Positions 1-9,060 of a stretch of DNA of 12,464 bases are shown here, one piece after another; position 1 is the stretch's first letter; each line of letters starts with the position of its first letter. Source of the DNA: an uncultured Eubacteriales bacterium (lineage in GTDB: Bacteria > Bacillota > Clostridia > Peptostreptococcales > Anaerovoracaceae); assembly GCA_902803185.1 (NCBI GenBank), contig CADCOV010000101.1, positions 1 to 12,464 of the forward strand. Reading direction: 5' to 3'. Under the pieces are notes generated by a model, which searched no databases, was not told where the DNA came from, and was given only the letters and a program-made list of their open reading frames with translations. Both the position numbers and the translations under genes were made by a program.

Positions 1-1902
1 GGCAGGGACGGTGAGCTCTGCCTGGATCCGCTGCTCCGCGGCGGCCTGCCCGGCGCCCAGATACCGGAAGCCCAGCATCGTGATGTCGTCGAACTGCGGC
101 GCTTCCTCCACGAAGCCGCCGATGGCGTCGTACAGGCCGTCGATCAAGGCCTTCGGCGAGGCGTCCGGGTCCCGGTTCAGGCTCTCGGTGAGACGCTCTT
201 CCCCGAAGAGCTCCTCCGCTTTGTTGGTGGCTTCGGTGACGCCGTCGGTGTACTCGAAGAAGCAGTCGCCCGGCTCCAGGGTCAGCTCGTAGTCACTGAA
301 GCGCAGGCCATCCCGGAGGCCCAGCGGCGGGTCGTGGCGGTATTTGATCAGCTCGAACTGCCCGTTCTTCCGGCGGACCACCGGATACTCGTGGCCCGCG
401 TTGGCGGCGGTGAGTTTGCCGGTCTTGAGGTCCAGGATGCCCAGCCAGACGGTGCAGAACATGAAGGCCGTGTTGTTTTGGGCGAGCTGGTGGTTGACGA
501 AGGTCAGGATCTCGCCCGGGGAGCCGCCGGCCTGGGCGTGGTTCTGGATCAGGGTCTTGGAAATGACCATGAACAGAGAGGCCGGGATCCCCTTGCCGGA
601 GACGTCGGCGATGGTGAGGGCCAGGCGGTCCTGGTCCACGAAGTAGAAGTCGTAGAAGTCGCCGCCCACCTCTTTGGCCGGCGTCATGCTGGCGTAGAGG
701 TCGATCTCCGTGCGGTCAGGGAACGGCGGGAAGATGCCCGGGAGCATGTCCCGCTGGATCCTGGAAGCGACGTCGAGCTCCGTCCCGATCTTCTCCCTCT
801 CGGAGGTCGCCTGCTCCAGGTTCCTGGTGTAGGTGTCGATCTCCTTGACCAGGTTGATGCTGGCCCGGGTCAGGCTGCTGACTTCGCCGTAGCCGTAGCG
901 GTACGGCTTGCACGGGTCCGTGACGATCTCCGGCCGGAGCGCGTTGTCCGCCTCCGCCGTGTAGGTCTCCAGGGCGCCGGCCAGGCTCAGGATCGGGCGG
1001 GTCACCTTCTTCTCCATGGAGCGCATGAACAAAACCTCCAGCAGCAGGAGGCCGTTCAGCATGGCCGCGATCATCACGTAGAACCGGTTCCAGAAGGCCT
1101 GATAGCCCTCGTAGGCCGCCTGCTCCCGGTCGGTCCAGGTCTCCGTCGCGATCTTGGCGGCGCGCTCGTATTCCTCAAACAGGTCCGGCTTCATGTACAG
1201 GGTGTTGCGGTACACCAGATAGGCACCCAGCAGCGAGGCCAGCACGCCCAGGGCGATGAAGCCCAGCACCATCCGCTCGTTGATGGTGAAGGTGCGGTGG
1301 CGGATCGCGGAGATCAGGATGACCAGCGGCAGGCCGAAGATCAGCATGATGTCCAGGTACTGGAAGAAGGTCAGGAGCCAGCCCCTCCAGCTCACGTCAG
1401 CGTAGTAGTCCCGGAACTGCACCGCGCTGATCAAAACGTACAGCGCTACCGTCGCCACCATGATCAGGTAGTATTTGATCACGTGGGCGGTGGTCTCCAT
1501 CCGCGGATAGCCCGGACGCTTCTCCCCCGGCACCGGGATGGTGTACCAGAGCAGGCACGGCAGGGCGCAGTAGACGATCAGGGAGACGGCCGCCGGCAGA
1601 TAGACCCGCGGGTCGAAGATCGCCTCCTGCATTCCCATGGACAGGAGGGCATAGACCGAGGACGCCAGCGACTCCAGCAGGCAGCCCAGGACGCCCCAGC
1701 CGCCCAGCAGGAACCCCACCACCGGCATGAAGGCGATGGACGGGTCGAACTCCGAGACCAGCCGCACTCTGGAAACGAAGAGCGGCAGGATCTCCAGGGC
1801 CAGGCATATCAGGAAACCTGCCAGCAGTGCCAGCAGGTTCCTCTTCCAGCCGAAGTTGCGGAGCAGACCCAGTTCTTTTTGGTTCTTTCCGAATTCGTTC
1901 AT
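1..1902 (-). CDS. Membrane-anchored SpoIIE-family PP2C serine phosphatase (3' end beyond window)
   Basis: Predicted to dephosphorylate a phospho-serine STAS protein, the step that flips a partner switch. 634 residues are visible and the frame is still open at base 1. About seven hydrophobic segments lie near residues 22-43, 57-88, 100-122, 142-161, 176-200, 209-231 and 273-293, followed by a HAMP-like linker (about 294-360). The PP2C domain spans about 370-616 with acidic metal-ligand motifs in the expected order: EVGGDFYD (411-418), DVSGKG (433-438), TDGVTEA (552-558) and FDDIT (604-608). The last visible residues, ELTVPA, look like the opening of an RsbW-type HATPase domain, so the full protein is probably a PP2C-kinase fusion (inference). 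The ATG lies 4 bases after the stop of the upstream STAS gene with only a weak GGAA in front, suggesting translational coupling. The STAS protein is its likely substrate. Confidence 0.93.
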   Translation of the reverse strand, partial: MNEFGKNQKELGLLRNFGWKRNLLALLAGFLICLALEILPLFVSRVRLVSEFDPSIAFMPVVGFLLGGWGVLGCLLESLASSVYALLSMGMQEAIFDPRVYLPAAVSLIVYCALPCLLWYTIPVPGEKRPGYPRMETTAHVIKYYLIMVATVALYVLISAVQFRDYYADVSWRGWLLTFFQYLDIMLIFGLPLVILISAIRHRTFTINERMVLGFIALGVLASLLGAYLVYRNTLYMKPDLFEEYERAAKIATETWTDREQAAYEGYQAFWNRFYVMIAAMLNGLLLLEVLFMRSMEKKVTRPILSLAGALETYTAEADNALRPEIVTDPCKPYRYGYGEVSSLTRASINLVKEIDTYTRNLEQATSEREKIGTELDVASRIQRDMLPGIFPPFPDRTEIDLYASMTPAKEVGGDFYDFYFVDQDRLALTIADVSGKGIPASLFMVISKTLIQNHAQAGGSPGEILTFVNHQLAQNNTAFMFCTVWLGILDLKTGKLTAANAGHEYPVVRRKNGQFELIKYRHDPPLGLRDGLRFSDYELTLEPGDCFFEYTDGVTEATNKAEELFGEERLTESLNRDPDASPKALIDGLYDAIGGFVEEAPQFDDITMLGFRYLGAGQAAAEQRIQAELTVPA

Positions 1903-1906
1903 GATG

Positions 1907-2206
1907 CTATTCCAAAGTCAGGAAGTTGTCGAACCCCGTGACGGTGAAGATGCTCTTGATGTTCTTACCGGCGCCGCGGATGACCATGGTGCCGTTCTTT
2001 TTGTCCATCCAGTTCTGGGCGGCCAGGACGACTCTGAGGCCGGCGGAAGAGATGTAGTTCACGCCGGTGAAATCCAGCACCAGATCGGTCACGCCCTCGA
2101 TGGCATCCTTCAGATAGCTTTCGAGCTCCGGCGAGGTCTGGGTGTCGATCCTGCCCTCGATGGCCACGGTCAGCGCGGTTCCTTCTAACTGTTTGTTGAT
2201 CGTCAT
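1907..2206 (-). CDS. STAS-domain anti-sigma-factor antagonist (SpoIIAA/RsbV-like)
   Basis: A 99-residue protein that is a single STAS domain, the normal size for SpoIIAA/RsbV proteins. Such proteins bind an RsbW-type kinase/anti-sigma factor when unphosphorylated and are released when phosphorylated. The signature LVLDFTGVNYISSAGLRVVL (42-61) contains the phosphorylatable serine, by alignment with RsbV most likely Ser54. The residue aligned with the Asp before the phospho-serine of SpoIIAA and RsbV is Ser here, a variant I believe is common in this family. A strong AGGAGGAA sits 6 bases before the ATG. The acyltransferase-like gene ends 27 bases upstream and the phosphatase gene starts 4 bases downstream, so the protein and its presumed phosphatase are co-translated. 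No sigma factor is in the window, so the final target is unknown. Confidence 0.93.
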   Translation of the reverse strand: MTINKQLEGTALTVAIEGRIDTQTSPELESYLKDAIEGVTDLVLDFTGVNYISSAGLRVVLAAQNWMDKKNGTMVIRGAGKNIKSIFTVTGFDNFLTLE

Positions 2207-2212
2207 AGATGG

Positions 2213-2220
2213 TTCCTCCT
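2213..2220 (-). promoter_or_regulatory. Strong ribosome binding site of the STAS gene
   Basis: AGGAGGAA on the minus strand, 6 bases before the ATG at 2206. It is clearly stronger than the site of the following phosphatase gene, which fits more antagonist than phosphatase being made from one mRNA. Confidence 0.75.
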
Positions 2221-2233
2221 CATTTTCTTCCCG

Positions 2234-3442
2234 TTACGGGATCAGATATTCATTCCAGATGTTCGCGAACTCGTCGATCCGCGGATAGGCGTAGGCGGCG
2301 ATGGCGATGGTGGCGATCCAGACCGCAGCGACAAAGACGATCCGCCCGGTCCCCTTCAGCGTGGTGAAATGGATGTGCCAGTATTTGTCGTTCAGGGTGA
2401 TGATCCAGTAGCACAGGAAGGTCACCAGGCAGCCGTACAGGAACGGCACCAGGATCCCGTCCATCAGTTCGCCGGTCGCCGCGATCAGGATCGTCTGCAA
2501 CGGCAGAACGAACATGTAGTGGATGCAGTAGTAGCTGTTGATGTTCGCCGAGAAGTGCATGATCACCTTCGGGAGCCTGCCGCCCGCCGCCTTCACGATC
2601 TTGTACAAGAGGGCGATGAAGCCCAGGGTGAAGATGCTGATGAAGATGGCGTCCGGCGTCGGCTGCATGTTGTACTGCAGGTCCCCTCCCACCTCAGGCA
2701 GATAGGACCACTCCCGCGTGAAGCGGAAGAAATAGTAGACGACGGTGAGCGGGAAGCAGATCAGCATGACCCGGTTCGCCAGGCCGTCCTTATCCTTGAT
2801 GTGCGGATAGTAGCTGCCGATGAAGTATCCCAGCGCAGGGAAGATGAAGTAGCACAGCAGCGGGAAGTAGGCTTCCGCGTCGGTGATGACGAAGTAGGCC
2901 AGCAGCTGGCTCACGAAGTAGTTGTCCGGCGACTCCATGCCGTGCCACAGGATCAAAGCGATCAGGTTCAGCAGGACGCCGATCGCCAGGATGTGGCCCG
3001 CCTTCAGATCCAGCTTCTTCAGGAGGCCCATCAGGAAGAAGGCCAGGCCCGCGAAGCTCAGGATGTCCGACTGCAGGACCAGGAAGGAGTTCGCGATGAA
3101 GAACTGCCCGCCGACGAGCCAGTAGGCGATCAGGTTCGGGATGGCGTTCCTCACGATGTTCAGGAACTGTCCGATGGTCAGCAGCGCGAAGCCCCGGATG
3201 AAGTACCCACGCGGAGACTGGTCCCTGGTGTAGCACATGCCGATGCCCATGCAGATCATGAAGGTGTTGGCGCCGAAGAAGTGGGTCACATAGGCGTCGA
3301 ACTCGCCAGGGAGCGCATCGTTCCTCAGATCCAGCAGCACGTGGGTGAAGATCATGCCGATGACGCACAGCGCCTTCAGCAGATCGATCTCCGGCTGCCT
3401 GCCGGTGTTGACCCTTTCCTCAGAGAAATAGCGGCTGTCCAT
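2234..3442 (-). CDS. Polytopic membrane acyltransferase-like protein (AT3/DUF1624-like)
   Basis: 402 residues with roughly ten to eleven hydrophobic segments spread over the whole length. The N-terminus, with EIDLLKALCVIGMIFTHVLL (18-37), resembles the first helix of acyltransferase-3 and heparan-glucosaminide-acetyltransferase-like (DUF1624) proteins, which carry a basic/acidic pair followed by a conserved His, here His34. Those families move acyl groups onto glycans, lipids or polymers at the membrane. The assignment rests on this motif and topology only. The acceptor is unknown. The ATG is 2 bases after the stop of the adenylating-enzyme gene, and its ribosome binding site (AAGGAGATC) lies inside that gene's end, so the two are translationally coupled. 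A donor made by the upstream acyl-CoA-synthetase-like enzyme would be a natural substrate (inference). Confidence 0.65.
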   Translation of the reverse strand: MDSRYFSEERVNTGRQPEIDLLKALCVIGMIFTHVLLDLRNDALPGEFDAYVTHFFGANTFMICMGIGMCYTRDQSPRGYFIRGFALLTIGQFLNIVRNAIPNLIAYWLVGGQFFIANSFLVLQSDILSFAGLAFFLMGLLKKLDLKAGHILAIGVLLNLIALILWHGMESPDNYFVSQLLAYFVITDAEAYFPLLCYFIFPALGYFIGSYYPHIKDKDGLANRVMLICFPLTVVYYFFRFTREWSYLPEVGGDLQYNMQPTPDAIFISIFTLGFIALLYKIVKAAGGRLPKVIMHFSANINSYYCIHYMFVLPLQTILIAATGELMDGILVPFLYGCLVTFLCYWIITLNDKYWHIHFTTLKGTGRIVFVAAVWIATIAIAAYAYPRIDEFANIWNEYLIP

Positions 3443-3444
3443 GG

Positions 3445-5454
3445 TTAACGGATCTCCTTGTACTGTTTGAGATAATCTTTGACGTTGAACTCATCGCTGT
3501 ACAGGAAGTCTAAGCTGTATTCGGTCTCTCCCTTTTCGTTCTCGCCGGAGGCGTAGGAGTCCACATTGTCCAGGATGATGCGGGCGCTCAGGGAAGCGTC
3601 CTCGGATTCGAGGGAGTACTTGCGGCCGGTGTCGGTGAAGCGCAGGCGCAGCCACTGCGGCATCAGCAGGACCTCCATCCGGATCTCGCCGTCCTCCTCG
3701 AAGGCGTTGTCGATGCGGTCGGTGAGCATCTCCTCGACGCCCAGGCGGATGCGCATCGCCTTCTCCTCGTCGAACCCGATCTGATCCGCCAGCTGCTGGA
3801 TCAAAGAGCAGCTCGGCACGATGGTGTAGCTGCGGTTCTTGACCTTGAGGTCGAGGACCCGGAAGCCCGCGTTCACCGCGGCGGTCAGGTTGAGGTCGTA
3901 GAGCTTGGCCAGCATGTCCGCGTGCAGCGTCCTCTGGTCCAGCTTGCCGTTCTCGTTCAGCGGGAAGGCCTGGTAGACGAAGAAGTGGGACGGTACCTTG
4001 AAGCCGCCCAGCTTGGCTTTGATGCGGGCCTTGAGGTCCTCCTCGTCCAGCTCAGGCTGGCGCAGCATCAGGCAGGCCTCGATGCTCTCGCCCCAGATCG
4101 GGTGGGCGGCGCCCATGACCTTGGCGCCGGCGATCTCCGGCTGCTCCAGCAGGGTCCGCTCGATCTCCACCGGGGAGATGTTCTCGCCGCTCTTGATGAT
4201 GATGTCTTTGATGCGGCCGGCGAACTGCAGCATGCCGTCCGGTTCGAAGCGGCCCAGGTCGCCGGTGTGGAGCCAGCCGTCGTCGTCGATGGCCTGCTTC
4301 TCCTTCGGCAGCCCGTAGTAGCCGTTCATGAGGCTCGGGCCCCTGACGACGATCTCGCCGATCTCGCCCTGGGCAGCAAAGCCGGTCCCCTCGTTCCAGA
4401 TGCGGACCTCGTGGTTCGGCAGGCTCCTGCCGACGGAGACCGCCCTCTTCTCCAGCGGGTCGCTGCAGGACTCCAGGGTGATGACCGGGGAGCACTCGGT
4501 CTGGCCGTAGCCGCAGAGCAGCTTGCCGCCGCCCAGGAGCTTCTCGAAGCGCATCATCTCCACCGGCGTCGTGAAGCCGCCGCCGACGATGCAGAGCCTG
4601 AGCTGGCCGGAGAGCTTTTGTTCGAATTCCGGCATGGCGGTCAGCATGCCGTAGATGGCGCCGACGGAGCACATGTCGGTGATCTTGTTCCGGTAGATCA
4701 TCTCCAGCAGCGTGTCCGGCTTGAGCATCGGCGTCATGAACACATGACGACCCATGGCCAGGTAGGCGTGGGCCACGGTCAGGCCGTAGCTGTGGAAGGT
4801 CGGCAGGGCCAGGCAGAGCTTGTCGCCGGTGTCCTGCTCGATCATCTCGATGCAGCCTTCCACGTTGCTCAGGATGGAATAGGAGGACTGCAGCACCGCC
4901 TTCGGCATCGAAGTCGTGCCGGAGGTGTAGATGATGACCGCGTCATCCTTTGGCACCTCCCGCTTGCGGAGTTCCGCCATCGCAGCGTCTTCCTCCGCCG
5001 ACAGCGGCATGAAGCAGGCCATCTCCACGAACGCGGTGGCCGTGAAGACGTGATCCATCGGCACGCCGCCCTGGATCAAAGCCATGCCCGCCGCCTGCGG
5101 ATCCGCCATGCTGATGGAGTTGCCGCCGATGATGCCCCAGCTGGCCCCGACCATCTTCGTCAGCGCGCTGACGTCCGGTCCCTTGAGGCCGTAGTTCATC
5201 AAAGTCGCGACGCCGCCGGCCTGGACGATCCCGAAGAACGGTACCATCCACTCGATGCCGTTGACGCCCCAGATGACCGCCCGGTCACCCTTCTGGAAGC
5301 CCATCGCCGCCAGCTTGAGGGCGCAGCGGTCCGCCGCGGTCTTCAGCTGCCCGTAGGTGATGGTCTTGTCCCGGCAGGTGATCGCCGGCCGGTCCGGATA
5401 CTCCTTCGCACCCCGGATCAGCGTCTCGGAGAAGACTTTCGATTCATACAACAT
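3445..5454 (-). CDS. Acyl-CoA-synthetase-like adenylating enzyme fused to an RsbW-like HATPase domain
   Basis: 669 residues; stand-alone acyl-CoA ligases are usually about 500-560. The ANL adenylation domain (about 1-515) is complete: P-loop YTSGTTSMPK (176-185), GYGQTE (315-320), TGDL (397-400), hinge FAGRIKDII (411-419) and the C-terminal catalytic-lysine region NENGKLD (500-506, Lys504). It should activate a carboxylic acid with ATP; the acid is unknown. Residues about 520-655 resemble the HATPase domain of RsbW/SpoIIAB-type kinases: GVEEMLTDRIDNAF (572-585) as N-box and FTDTG (606-610) as G1 box. The usual N-box Asn is Asp579 and no GLGL-type ATP-lid motif is visible, so kinase activity is doubtful. 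The start MLYES (ATG 5454) is preferred to an in-frame ATG at 5544 because the ligase homology begins there and GAGGGGGAA precedes it by 7 bases. First gene of its operon. Confidence 0.92.
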   Translation of the reverse strand: MLYESKVFSETLIRGAKEYPDRPAITCRDKTITYGQLKTAADRCALKLAAMGFQKGDRAVIWGVNGIEWMVPFFGIVQAGGVATLMNYGLKGPDVSALTKMVGASWGIIGGNSISMADPQAAGMALIQGGVPMDHVFTATAFVEMACFMPLSAEEDAAMAELRKREVPKDDAVIIYTSGTTSMPKAVLQSSYSILSNVEGCIEMIEQDTGDKLCLALPTFHSYGLTVAHAYLAMGRHVFMTPMLKPDTLLEMIYRNKITDMCSVGAIYGMLTAMPEFEQKLSGQLRLCIVGGGFTTPVEMMRFEKLLGGGKLLCGYGQTECSPVITLESCSDPLEKRAVSVGRSLPNHEVRIWNEGTGFAAQGEIGEIVVRGPSLMNGYYGLPKEKQAIDDDGWLHTGDLGRFEPDGMLQFAGRIKDIIIKSGENISPVEIERTLLEQPEIAGAKVMGAAHPIWGESIEACLMLRQPELDEEDLKARIKAKLGGFKVPSHFFVYQAFPLNENGKLDQRTLHADMLAKLYDLNLTAAVNAGFRVLDLKVKNRSYTIVPSCSLIQQLADQIGFDEEKAMRIRLGVEEMLTDRIDNAFEEDGEIRMEVLLMPQWLRLRFTDTGRKYSLESEDASLSARIILDNVDSYASGENEKGETEYSLDFLYSDEFNVKDYLKQYKEIR

Positions 5455-5461
5455 GTGCGCA

Positions 5462-5470
5462 TTCCCCCTC
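5462..5470 (-). promoter_or_regulatory. Ribosome binding site fixing the start of the adenylating-enzyme gene
   Basis: GAGGGGGAA on the minus strand, 7 bases before the ATG at 5454. The alternative in-frame ATG at 5544 lies upstream of the predicted transcription start and within the inverted repeat, so it is unlikely to be used. Confidence 0.65.
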
Positions 5471-5515
5471 AGTGATATCAAAATGTGTTCCAAATAAGCA
5501 GAATTCTCTAAGTTT

Positions 5516-5544
5516 ATATTAGCACTCCAATCTTTGGAATGCAA
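5516..5544 (-). promoter_or_regulatory. Predicted promoter of the ligase/partner-switch operon
   Basis: On the minus strand, TTGCAT (5539-5544) and TAATAT (5516-5521) are separated by exactly 17 bases, and the -10 is preceded by TGC, forming an extended -10 (TGcTAATAT). Transcription would begin near 5509, giving a 5' leader of about 55 bases. It sits in the AT-rich gap between the esterase remnant and the ligase gene, the only such gap in this half of the window. The -35 is a weak match (3 of 6). Confidence 0.5.
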
Positions 5545-5545
5545 T
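5519..5545. promoter_or_regulatory. CIRCE-like inverted repeat overlapping the promoter (possible operator)
   Basis: Read on the plus strand, TTAGCACTC (5519-5527) is a perfect match to the left half of the HrcA operator CIRCE (TTAGCACTC-N9-GAGTGCTAA). After exactly nine bases comes GAATGCAAT (5537-5545), matching 6 of 9 positions of the right half. The nine-base spacer extends the dyad inward (CCAA-TCT-TTGG), so it can also be read as 12-base arms with 9 pairs around a 3-base centre. The half-sites cover the -35 and -10 of the predicted promoter, a geometry that suits a repressor. HrcA is only one candidate, because the right half is imperfect. Confidence 0.4.
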
Positions 5546-5553
5546 CAAAGGCC

Positions 5554-5910
5554 CTACTGACTTTGGCTGATTAGTTTGCTCTTGTTCATCCGGACGATGA
5601 GCCAGACTCCCAGGATCATAGCGTCGACGACGAACAGGGAGAAGAGGCCCCGGACGAACCGCTTCCTGAGGTAGAGGAGCGCGTAGTCCACCATCATGTA
5701 GTAGCCGTTGAACCGGTACTTCACCATCGGCTCGATCAGGATCCGCTGGCCGCTCATCAGGTCGTACTCCAGACCGATCTCGTCCCCCAGCACCATGGTG
5801 GCCCGGTTCTCCGGATCGAAGCGCATCCAGCGGTGCGCCTCTGTGGACGGGTTCCCGGTCTTCGCGAAGTTCACCCACATCTGCTGGACCTCCGGCGTCC
5901 CGCCGGATCC
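5554..5910 (-). pseudogene. C-terminal remnant of a type-B carboxylesterase with a trailing membrane segment
   Basis: The open frame after the terminator encodes about 118 residues. The stretch MWVNFAKTGNPST, then FDPENRATMVLGDEIGLEYD, is typical of the last 80 or so residues of type-B carboxylesterases. The catalytic Ser/Glu/His regions of such enzymes (normally around 500 residues) are absent, because upstream the sequence runs straight into the terminator and the flavodiiron gene. After the esterase-like part comes a basic stretch and a hydrophobic helix (GLFSLFVVDAMILGVWLIV), an unusual tail for this family. An ATG at 5880 has GGAGGT 7 bases ahead and would yield a 108-residue product ending at 5554, so a short membrane protein could still be made. 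Most likely a decayed or deletion-truncated gene. No esterase activity is expected. Confidence 0.6.
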
Positions 5911-5945
5911 AAAAAAACGCCCTGTTCCAGAGGTGGAACAGGGCG
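5911..5945 (-). terminator. Rho-independent terminator after the flavodiiron gene
   Basis: On the minus strand a perfect 12-bp stem (CGCCCTGTTCCA with TGGAACAGGGCG) closes on a 4-base loop (CCTC) and is followed directly by seven T residues. It starts 9 bases after the flavodiiron stop codon and should end the operon that begins near 12.18 kb. Confidence 0.93.
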
Positions 5946-5954
5946 ACTGTAGCT

Positions 5955-7259
5955 TTACGCTTCTTCGAACAGGTCCGGACCGACGCCGCAGACCGGGCAC
6001 TCGTAGTCCTCCGGCAGGGCTTCGCCCTCGTAGACGTAGCCGCAGATGGAGCAGACCCACTTCTGCGCCGCCGGCGCTTCGGCCTCCGCCTCTTCCTCCT
6101 GGGCGCCGACCAGCTCGGCAGCCAGGGCGTCGATGGTCTCCTTATTGGCGTCCGTCAGTGCGCTCTTGATAGTGACCGTGGTCTCCGCGAAGGTCAGCGG
6201 GCAGCCCTCCAGGTAGCCCTTCATGCGCTTTGCCGCTTGCGGGGCCCAGGTGCCGTTCTCGATGAAGGCCACCTCCCTGTTCTGGAAGCCCCTCTCCACC
6301 AGGTGATCGATGAAGGTCCTCATGAACGGGAAGCAGTCGTTGTTGTAGGTGGTGGTGGCCAGGACCAGCTTGCTGTGGCGGAAGGCGTCCTCCACGCACT
6401 CGAACATGTCCTCCCTGGCCAGGTCCGCGATGGCGACCCTCGGGCAGCCCTTCTCCTCCAGCTTCTCAGCCAGGAGCTCGGCGGCCTCCTTGGTGTGGCC
6501 GTAGACGGAGGTGTAGGCGATGAACACGCCCTCGTCCTCCGGTTCATAGGAGGACCAGGTGTTGTAGGTGGTCAGATAGTAGTCCAGATCCTCGTCGAGC
6601 ACCGGTCCGTGGAGCGGGCAGATGGCTTTGATCTCGAGGCCCTGGATGGCCTGGAACAGCTTCTGGACGTGGGCGCCGTACTTGCCCACGATGCCGAAGT
6701 AGTAGCGGCGGGCTTCGCAGGCCCAGCCTTCCGGATCCTCCACGTCGTTGGCGCCGAACTTGCCGAAGGCGTCAGCGGAGAAGAAGACCTTGTCGGTCTT
6801 GTCGTAGGTCATCATGACCTCCGGCCAGTGGACCATCGGTGCGAAGACGAAGCAGAGCTCGTGGCGGCCCAGGCTCAGGGTGTCGCCGTTCTTGACGACC
6901 AGCTTGTTCATCGCCGGGTCCTCGCCGTAGAACTGGTTCATCATGGTGAAGGTCTTGGCGTTGCCCACGACGGTGACCTGCGGGTACTTGGCGGTCAGCG
7001 CCCTGATGTTCGCGGAGTGATCCGGCTCCATGTGCTGCACGATCAGGTAGTCCGGGGTCTTGCCCTCCAGCGCGTTCTCGATGTTCTCGAGCCACTCCTC
7101 GCCGAAGTCCGCCTCCACGGAGTCGAAGACCGCGATCTTCTCGTCCAGGATGACGTAGGAGTTATAGGCCATGCCCAGCGGCACCTCGTACTGGCCTTCA
7201 AACAGATCGATTTTGTGGTCGTTCACGCCCACGTATTTGATGTCATTGGTGATTCTCAT
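5955..7259 (-). CDS. fprA: Flavodiiron protein with C-terminal rubredoxin-like domain (O2/NO reductase)
   Basis: A cytosolic flavodiiron protein, a family that reduces O2 to water or NO to N2O and protects anaerobes. Residues 1-245 are the metallo-beta-lactamase-like diiron domain with ligands in the expected pattern: HMEPDH (His76, Glu78, Asp80, His81), His144, Asp163 and His217. Residues about 246-385 are the flavodoxin domain, with the FMN phosphate loop YTSVYGHT (249-256). An acidic/Ala linker (386-399) leads to a 35-residue rubredoxin-like domain with CSIC (403-406) and CPVC (421-424), which should carry one iron and pass electrons to FMN. That domain is of the short rubrerythrin type, not the roughly 50-residue classical rubredoxin. 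AGGAGGA lies 4 bases before the ATG. The thioesterase gene ends 21 bases upstream and the terminator follows. Confidence 0.96.
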
Positions 7260-7280
7260 TGTTTCCTCCTTGTATTGCCC

Positions 7281-7736
7281 TTATACCCGGCTGCCCGGGG
7301 CCTTTCCCTGCGTGATGACGAAACTTCCCTGCGCGGTGGCGCACAGCAGGTCCTGATCCGTGTCGATCGCCTTGCCGATGCAGCGGATCATCCGGCTGCC
7401 CAGCTGGGTGTACTCGATGTGGAACCGGTAGTGGGTCCCCATCATCGGCTTCAGGTAGCTGACCGACAGGTCCGTCGTGGAGACGAAGCCGTTGCTCAGC
7501 GCCGCCGCCCCGTAGCCCATGCAGGTGTCGAACAGCGTGCAGATGACGCCGCCGTGGACCCCGCCGTACGGGTTCAGCCAGACCTCCCTGTCGTTGTCGA
7601 AGGCGAAATCGACGAACAGTTCCTCCCGGCTGCAGTCGAGGAGCTTCAGACCCAGCTGCTGGTTCATCCGCTCCGGGAACCGGGCGTTGTACTCGAACCG
7701 GGCGTCGATCGCCTTCTGGAGTTCCAGATCTTTCAT
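7281..7736 (-). CDS. PaaI-family hotdog-fold thioesterase
   Basis: 151 residues, the normal size for a single hotdog domain of the PaaI/ACOT13 family, which hydrolyses acyl-CoA thioesters as a tetramer in the cytosol. The motif NPYGGVHGGVICTLFDTCMG (55-74) is the family signature, with His61-Gly-Gly and the candidate catalytic acid Asp70. SVSYLKPM (91-98) is the usual second conserved strand. The substrate cannot be read from the sequence. The start was chosen at the ATG at 7736, preceded by a rather distant AAGGG. The gene lies 25 bases after the cytidylyltransferase-oxidoreductase fusion and 21 bases before the flavodiiron gene, so it is probably co-transcribed. A functional tie to the polymer genes is not evident; it might serve the acyl-CoA ligase of the next operon (speculation). 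Confidence 0.88.
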   Translation of the reverse strand: MKDLELQKAIDARFEYNARFPERMNQQLGLKLLDCSREELFVDFAFDNDREVWLNPYGGVHGGVICTLFDTCMGYGAAALSNGFVSTTDLSVSYLKPMMGTHYRFHIEYTQLGSRMIRCIGKAIDTDQDLLCATAQGSFVITQGKAPGSRV

Positions 7737-7761: not shown

Positions 7762-9060
7762 TTATCTCCTGTGGATCTCCTCCAGGATCTCGCTGATCTT
7801 GACGGACTCCTCCGGGAACAGGCCGGCGGATTCCGTCTTGTTGTTGCCGAACATGACCAGCATCTCCTTGAGGAGGAACTTGAAGCCGTTGCCGGCGAAG
7901 TTCATGTTGTAGATCTTCGTCTCGCCGGTCTCGGTGTCCTCCATCTCAAAGTAGTTGGACTTCCACCAGTTGTCCTTGAGGCGGATGGTGCCCTTGCTGC
8001 CGATGATCTCCATCTGGTTCTTGACCCGGACGTTGTTGCCCACCTTGACGATGGCCTCCGCCGACGGATACTCGAAGACGATGGAACCGAACTCGACGCC
8101 GTCTCCCTCGCGGATCAGCCGCGGGATCATCTTGGTGTAGTCCGTGCCCATGATCTTCACCATCGGGGTCAGGGCCAAAGCCATCAGCTCGTCGAAGAAG
8201 TCCTTGATGTTCTTGTCGTTCTTGGAGACGGAGCAGTTGAACTGGAGGATGTCTCCGATCAGGCCGCCGTGGCACATCCACATGATCTGGTTGAAGACCC
8301 TCACGTAGACCATCTTGACGTTGTCGATCAAAGCCACGCCCCTGTCCTTCGCCAGGTCGAAGAGCTCTCTCTGCTTCTTCGCGCTGATGGTGAACGGCGG
8401 GTCGCAGATCACGTGCTTGCCCATCTCCAGGGCTTCCTTGATGTAGTCGTAGCGGTCCTCGATCCGGGTGCGGACGTAGACGATGTCAGAAGCCTCGAAA
8501 AGGGCCATCTCGCTGTCGAAAGCCGTCTCCAGCTGGTACTTTTCCCTGAACTTCTCTCTCAGCTCCTCGTCGTCCGCGTAGACGCCGCTGATCTTGAAGC
8601 CGCTCACCAGCTTGGACTCGCTGACGATGGTGTTGTCGTTCTCCTGGTCGGTGATGATGCCGATGTGATGGGCCGGGAAGTTCTCCTCCCTGAGCTGGGT
8701 GCTGGAGATGTTCTTGGTCCGCTCCAGGTAGACCACGTCGCAGTACTTGCCCAGGTGGTCGAACTTGCCCCGCCAGTCGTCGCCGATGACGAAGGTGTCG
8801 ATGTCGTATTTGATCACGTCGCTGATCTTCTGGCCCAGGTATTCCTCGATGATGATCGCGTCCACCAGGCCGGTGTTCTTGACGTTCTCGATGCGGGTCG
8901 CGATGTCGTCGTGGACGGAGAGCTTGCCCCGGCTGATGTCGTAGCTGTCGCCGGTGACGCCGACGATCAGGTAGTCGCCGTACTCCTTGGCCCGCTTCAG
9001 GATGTTGTAGTGGCCCTGGTGGAACAGGTCAAAGGTCCCGTAGGTGATGACTTTTCTCAT
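7762..9060 (-). CDS. TagD-like nucleotidyltransferase fused to a Gfo/Idh/MocA-like oxidoreductase domain
   Basis: 432 residues in two parts. Residues 1-128 form a cytidylyltransferase with HQGH (14-17) and RTKNISSTQ (114-122), clearly paralogous to the adjacent TagD: the first twelve residues are identical and DTFVIGDDWRGKFD is nearly so. The central region differs, with no EHRK or RYVD equivalents, suggesting another substrate. Residues about 131-432 resemble Gfo/Idh/MocA oxidoreductases, including ALEMGKHVIC (209-219) and MEIIGSKGTIRLKD (350-363). The Rossmann glycine motif is not recognisable near IGIITDQEN, the EKP motif reads CDPP (219-222), and the usual catalytic His region reads LALTPM. 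NAD-dependent activity is therefore uncertain. By analogy with fused CDP-ribitol synthases it may reduce and activate a sugar phosphate (inference). Start and upstream stop overlap as ATGA, indicating coupling to tagD. Confidence 0.88.
   Translation of the reverse strand: MRKVITYGTFDLFHQGHYNILKRAKEYGDYLIVGVTGDSYDISRGKLSVHDDIATRIENVKNTGLVDAIIIEEYLGQKISDVIKYDIDTFVIGDDWRGKFDHLGKYCDVVYLERTKNISSTQLREENFPAHHIGIITDQENDNTIVSESKLVSGFKISGVYADDEELREKFREKYQLETAFDSEMALFEASDIVYVRTRIEDRYDYIKEALEMGKHVICDPPFTISAKKQRELFDLAKDRGVALIDNVKMVYVRVFNQIMWMCHGGLIGDILQFNCSVSKNDKNIKDFFDELMALALTPMVKIMGTDYTKMIPRLIREGDGVEFGSIVFEYPSAEAIVKVGNNVRVKNQMEIIGSKGTIRLKDNWWKSNYFEMEDTETGETKIYNMNFAGNGFKFLLKEMLVMFGNNKTESAGLFPEESVKISEILEEIHRR

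Follow-up and report, generated by a model that had tools for sequence, protein, structure and literature searches.

Introduction

The best-known role of partner switching is the release of sigma factors. In Pseudomonas aeruginosa, the SiaABCD system consists of the PP2C phosphatase SiaA, the kinase SiaB, the protein SiaC and the diguanylate cyclase SiaD (PMC8457831, PMC7647112), and the STAS-controlled enzymes named in the introduction of PMC8457831, SiaD, HsbD and BgrR, are all diguanylate cyclases. Here we describe a module of four genes on a stretch of 12,464 bp from an uncultured Eubacteriales bacterium. This stretch, hereafter the window, is the entire contig CADCOV010000101.1 (G000:C101) of a draft genome of 1.73 Mb in 304 contigs that is 79% complete. 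The four genes encode an AMP-forming acyl-CoA ligase that carries a C-terminal RsbW-fold domain (LIG), a membrane acyltransferase of the TmAT type (ACYL), a STAS-only protein and a membrane-bound PP2C phosphatase. We propose with moderate confidence that the module is a partner-switching device in which an enzyme, and not a sigma factor, is the output. Among the matches listed in the open-licence literature of PMC, covered as titles and beginnings of abstracts, no description of this gene set or of a ligase-RsbW fusion was found.

Organization and conservation of the module

The initial annotation of the window read the four genes as lying on one strand in the order ligase-HATPase, acyltransferase, STAS and PP2C with gaps of 2, 27 and 4 bases, and the coordinates of the open reading frames (ORFs) agree with it on every point. 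Its grouping of the four families into one module is upheld by comparative data. A scan of genome contigs with LIG yielded 10 relative loci of 73–79% identity, assigned to Lachnospiraceae (8), Clostridiales (1) and Blautia (1), and the sources stated for four of them are goat omasum, reindeer, sheep jejunum and roe deer caecum. The full set occurs in the same order in all nine loci with sufficient DNA; at the tenth, L050, the contig ends after LIG and ACYL, so this locus stands outside the count. ACYL adjoins LIG in every one of the 10 loci, the two genes overlapping by 4 bases in seven and by 1 base in two, and being separated by 58 bases in one. A more divergent relative, L110 (genome G1193), shows the order esterase, ACYL, LIG, STAS and PP2C, so that ACYL and LIG are swapped with respect to the window; its LIG and ACYL are 54% and 45% identical to those of the window, and its phosphatase matches the window PP2C in the C-terminal part only. 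The strongest indication that the gene families form one working system is that they still stand together in L110, although sequence and gene order have both changed.

Distance matrices of the four proteins were compared across 9 loci, and the correlations, which are not corrected for the kinship of the genomes, are highest for LIG-ACYL (r 0.77) and LIG-PP2C (0.76), followed by ACYL-STAS (0.62), LIG-STAS (0.51), ACYL-PP2C (0.37) and STAS-PP2C (0.33). In the underlying sequence sets, alignment A4 is without the ACYL of L052, which is split into two ORFs, and alignments A3 and A5 are without L050 owing to its contig end.

The module is rare and scattered. A search with the LIG tail through 392 genomes from the order of the window found no orthologue apart from that in the window's own genome, and seven weak matches proved to be other proteins; 390 other genomes from the class gave none. 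In the family of the carrier genome G410, orthologues occur in 3 of 397 genomes, all three already found, and two further weak matches are other proteins. The genus of G410 holds one in its 5 genomes, namely in G410 itself, and the genus of G413 has orthologues in 5 of 19 genomes, four of them already found. LIG as a whole has matches in 49 of 61 genomes of near relatives, the own genome included; at three of the top-scoring loci besides it (L005-L007), the ORFs have 821–843 residues and their similarity to LIG stops by residue 520. One genome, G411, harbors the full module (L073) and, in addition, a further copy of LIG with 69% identity to that of the window (L072:2789-5021, contig C151), which is followed by the start of ACYL and then the contig end.

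The ligase and its RsbW-fold tail

LIG matches the Pfam families AMP-binding (8.3e-70) and AMP-binding_C (2.6e-11). The phosphate loop GTTSxPK (G179-S182, P184, K185) and the C-terminal Lys504, which we take to be the catalytic motifs of ANL enzymes, are invariant in all 11 aligned copies. Its closest solved relatives differ among themselves in substrate, and among 25 listed NCBIfam models, out of 107, none reaches its cut-off.

The enzyme domain is followed by the RsbW-fold tail in 11 of 11 copies. This tail matches HATPase_c_2 weakly, at 2.6e-4 and with 21.4 bits against a curated threshold of 27.4. The Asn of the N-box has a role in ATP binding; in the tail it is replaced by Asp (Asp579) in all 11 aligned copies, and the aligned region has neither a GxG motif nor a glycine box. 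L110 carries Glu at the same position, again with no glycine box after it. Otherwise the RsbW/GHKL fold is retained. This loss of motifs speaks against a plain kinase; with the N-box Asn lost and no glycine box, the tail looks like a dead kinase retained for docking. Structures of anti-sigma factors bound to their sigma factors (8jzt, 1l0o) are among its best structural matches. A profile search in the sequences of the PDB gave weak matches only, in which RsbW (E 0.28) scored no better than proteins unrelated to it.

STAS protein and phosphatase-kinase

The third gene encodes a STAS-only protein, in whose conserved loop a Ser is the candidate for phosphorylation: it matches Pfam STAS at 4.5e-16 (PF01740/PF13466), scores above the cut-off of the NCBIfam model ant_ant_sig, and its YISSAGLR loop is invariant in 10 of 10 aligned sequences. 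The product of the fourth gene has 7 hydrophobic segments at its N-terminus; it matches SpoIIE at 8.6e-50 in the window, and the SpoIIE-type phosphatase is conserved in all 10 aligned proteins. In nine of nine relatives the same protein ends in an RsbW-type HATPase kinase domain with intact motifs. The gene is incomplete in the window because the window is a whole contig and the gene runs off its end. The initial annotation missed both this truncation and the kinase on the phosphatase protein, as well as the dead-kinase character of the LIG tail and the esterase described below.

The intact kinase bears on the question of whether the tail of LIG, despite the exchange of Asn for Asp, might itself still phosphorylate STAS and the ligase thereby report its own state. 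The remaining fold is kept, the 16 kb of DNA at L110 showed no further HATPase, and most of the MATE exporter fusions presented below retain the Asn (13 of 15), which makes effector-fused kinases plausible. We consider this improbable, however, given that the Asn is replaced in all 11 copies and in L110, the glycine box is missing, and the relatives already carry an intact HATPase on the PP2C protein.

A second question is whether STAS and PP2C serve transcription instead, as a classic switch for a transcription regulator or sigma factor whose gene lies at another place in the genome. The tail of LIG would then be an enzyme-fused anti-sigma factor that links acid activation to transcription. 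The anti-sigma/sigma complexes among the top structural matches would fit, as would the transcription regulators that follow the module on the same strand in three of eight relatives, namely an AraC-type response regulator (L052) and PucR-type regulators (L056, L058). On the other side, the 10 downstream proteins scanned in 8 relatives (three without a Pfam match; two short ORFs on the opposite strand, in L056 and L058, left out) include no sigma factor, a result that covers these proteins and not whole genomes; the regulators belong to two types that are not related, and the other relatives scanned lack them; and the cytosolic enzyme domain before the tail in every copy points to the enzyme as the output. 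We give this explanation a low probability. The initial annotation had reported no sigma factor or regulator, of which the first half extends to the downstream proteins of the relatives and the second does not. It had also suggested looking to the left of the window for a carrier protein, an MBOAT protein or a sigma factor, and none of these is among the same 10 proteins. Neither the rare co-occurrence of the four families nor the larger sigma-factor operon to the left that it had named as refuting outcomes was encountered in the nine loci and 10 downstream proteins covered.

The membrane acyltransferase and the esterase

ACYL matches Acyl_transf_3 (3.5e-11) and HGSNAT_cat (4.3e-11) in Pfam, and by fold search it has a ten-helix fold in common with HGSNAT of the TmAT superfamily; a profile search in PDB sequences gave no match. 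Residues D20xxK23, H34, F61xxxxG66 and R83 are invariant in 10 of 10 aligned sequences. They correspond to the TmAT hallmarks DxxR in transmembrane helix 1 (TMH1; DxxRx10H in AT3), FxxxxG in TMH2 and an Arg in TMH3, which R83 probably represents, while Lys23 takes the place of the TMH1 Arg. According to PMC12423673, two other families of the TmAT clan show the same change from Arg to Lys, and acyl-CoA is the substrate of TmAT enzymes.

In five of the 10 loci (L050, L051, L053, L055 and L059), LIG is preceded on its own strand by a gene of the carboxylesterase family (~600 residues, GESAG motif), and L110 has one before ACYL. Two of these proteins (L053, L059) were checked against Pfam and three for hydrophobic segments, and each of the three has one such segment at either end. 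The loci without the esterase show other upstream genes: PAP2 (L054), peptidase M15 after a CoA-transferase (L056), GH1 (L057), a relative of the L056 CoA-transferase by clustering (L058) and a Big_2 protein (L052). The window retains approximately the last 110 residues, 47–52% identical over 95–107 residues to the esterases of three relatives.

The esterase could point to a catabolic set, in which it frees acids outside the cell, the ligase activates them for breakdown, ACYL acts separately and the switch tunes scavenging. The esterase before the module in half of the relatives and in L110 fits such a set, whereas the other half have none at that position. Moreover, ACYL adjoins LIG in every locus, mostly with overlapping ends (nine of 10, by 1–4 bases), and TmATs use acyl-CoA, so a shared chain is the simpler explanation. 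We think the catabolic set quite unlikely.

Proposed mechanism

From the families, folds, motifs and loss of motifs described above we infer the following mechanism, in which the activities, the docking, the acyl group and its acceptor are predictions. The membrane PP2C, with a multi-helix sensor and, as seen in the relatives, its own RsbW-type kinase domain, would set the phosphorylation of STAS. Unphosphorylated STAS would dock on the tail of LIG, which would act as a receptor without kinase motifs, and this docking would turn the ligase on or off, with either sign being conceivable. The acyl-CoA made by LIG would be the donor for the co-encoded acyltransferase, which has the TmAT fold and motifs and would move the acyl group through the membrane onto an external acceptor. 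In about half of the relatives, a membrane-tethered carboxylesterase may cleave the acyl group off again or free the acid so that it can be re-used. In some gut bacteria, a switch built onto an acid-activating enzyme probably controls when a membrane enzyme attaches the acids to a target outside the cell. The initial annotation had suggested that the switch may act directly on the acyltransferase or the ligase instead of on transcription. Direct action on the ligase is the more likely, because the RsbW-fold domain without kinase motifs sits on it; an exclusively direct action sits less well with the regulators downstream in three of eight relatives.

Several points weigh against the enzyme-output mechanism. 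The kinase domain is absent from the window itself, as the contig ends just before its C-terminal position, and it is not universal in the module, since the phosphatase of L110 is without HATPase and the 16 kb at that locus showed no other copy. An Asp in the N-box alone is no proof that ATP binding is lost. STAS co-varies only modestly with the other three proteins (r 0.33–0.62). The regulators downstream count somewhat against a purely non-transcriptional role; their types differ and other relatives are without them.

With its four or five genes, the module is small and self-contained, and so simple to test. If the mechanism holds, the kinase-dead receptor on a metabolic ligase would show how a domain fusion can re-wire a partner switch to metabolism, and the model offers a direct, testable path from a membrane signal to outside acylation in gut anaerobes.

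Parallel effector fusions

Among the weak matches to the LIG tail are MATE exporters that themselves end in an RsbW-like domain. A search with one such tail gave matches in 11 of 297 genomes of the order, the window's own genome included, and 15 fusions were inspected, 14 from those 11 genomes and one from G595. The N-box Asn is kept in 13, comprising L092:1099-2853 in the window's own genome (contig C259) and 12 others (L093-L104). The two without it, L069:4266-9688 (G166) and L070:3959-9543 (G595), where the transporter is the likely output, are the only ones with both PP2C and HATPase alongside, and L069 has STAS too. Of the Asn-keeping fusions, L095 has a STAS gene alone nearby and L101 a PP2C gene alone on the other strand; the other 11 have neither in the flanking DNA examined. 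Although the sample is small, the MATE fusions show the same layout with another effector. They also suggest that loss of the N-box Asn is tied to the presence of a kinase in the same module, which fits the ligase module, L069 and L070; L110, with no HATPase in its 16 kb, speaks against this link. A GlnQ-like ABC ATPase in G009 likewise has an RsbW-like C-terminal tail, with Gln at the N-box Asn position (L040:793-1884 / L071:8131-9222), and neither STAS nor PP2C is nearby.

As a tentative and still doubtful generalization, RsbW-fold domains that have shed their kinase function might be plug-in receptors that put unrelated enzymes or transporters under the direct control of STAS. The membrane PP2C-kinase sensor of the ligase module would in that case regulate outside acylation rapidly and without transcription. 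Examples would be the acyl-CoA ligase described here, the MATE exporter of L069 and L070, and perhaps the amino-acid ABC ATPase of L040.

Genomic context of the module

The features of the module and its immediate border are summarized in Table 1.

Table 1. Features of the four-gene module and its upstream border in the window.
Feature	Position	Strand	Remark
LIG, acyl-CoA/AMP ligase with C-terminal RsbW-fold domain	3445..5454	-	ligase part: residues 1 to about 512
LIG tail, RsbW/SpoIIAB-fold domain without kinase motifs	3448..3912	-	
ACYL, TmAT-type membrane acyltransferase	2234..3442	-	
STAS-only protein with YISSAGLR loop	1907..2206	-	
PP2C (SpoIIE) phosphatase, 7 N-terminal hydrophobic segments, incomplete at contig end	1..1902	-	
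Carboxylesterase C-terminal remnant	about 5554..5889	-	COesterase match and identity to relatives' esterases
Terminator-like hairpin of the upstream FprA-like gene	5918..5945	-	12-pair stem, T run

From right to left on the minus strand, the window holds ABC transporter genes (named from their ORFs alone), then a CDP-glycerol glycerophosphotransferase-like gene and a pair of cytidylyltransferase genes, of which one includes an oxidoreductase domain. Next come a thioesterase-like gene and an FprA-like flavoprotein with a rubredoxin-like end, followed by the hairpin, the esterase remnant and the four module genes. The fused gene (7762-9060) joins a TagD-like cytidylyltransferase to a GFO/IDH/MocA oxidoreductase domain, and it adjoins a stand-alone TagD-like gene with which it has repeated DNA in common. 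A 54-base direct repeat in three copies lies near the right contig end (12239-12400). The initial annotation had suggested that the module may modify a lipid or the polymer made by these tag-like genes. The link to the tag-like genes finds no support: blastp searches with TagD, the TagD-oxidoreductase and TagF of the window found no homologue in the DNA covered around the module in any of the 10 relative loci. Nor was its single promoter recovered, as a scan of positions 1-7300 for the sigma-70 consensus gave one promoter-like site, inside STAS, with 1.5 expected from shuffles; a promoter of another type is possible.

The esterase remnant starts 28 bases after the terminator of the FprA-like gene, and the junction (5554-5945) resembles a deletion or rearrangement point. 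This would be in line with an artefact, that is, a mis-binned or chimeric contig or a chance meeting of neighbours, and so would the low similarity of the best LIG match in 12 other genomes of the window's genus (E 1.1e-45, 27% identity). Such an origin is refuted for the four-gene module, whose genes lie together in independent assemblies, one from FE2018 included. The two halves of the contig are also alike, and like other contigs of the genome, in tetranucleotide profile and G+C content (GC), and their GC at third codon positions (GC3) is alike. We regard an artefact as very improbable. The FprA-like protein reaches 68% identity to near relatives and 70% to carriers of the module, which does not discriminate between origins of the contig.

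Comparison with known systems

In the RsbU/RsbV/RsbW and SpoIIE/SpoIIAA/SpoIIAB switches we find the same three protein families as in the module, and the tail of LIG has the same fold. The module differs from them in having no sigma factor alongside (10 downstream proteins, 8 relatives) and in that one of its RsbW-fold domains, without the N-box Asn and the glycine box, is placed on an enzyme. Among ANL ligases such as FadD13, oxalyl-CoA and succinylbenzoyl-CoA ligases, both ANL domains and the catalytic motifs are shared with LIG, whereas the C-terminal RsbW-fold domain is an addition of LIG. Within the TmAT superfamily (AT3/OafB, HGSNAT, GWT1), ACYL is set apart by Lys in place of the TMH1 Arg, by a dedicated ligase partner and by the switch. 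SiaABCD is the closest precedent; the module as proposed works alike, yet it is no member of that system. Its output is an AMP-forming acyl-CoA ligase with a TmAT acyltransferase instead of a diguanylate cyclase, its STAS protein is of the PF01740 type while SiaC belongs to DUF1987, its kinase and phosphatase form one protein in nine of nine relatives where SiaA and SiaB are separate, and its enzyme itself bears an RsbW-fold tail.

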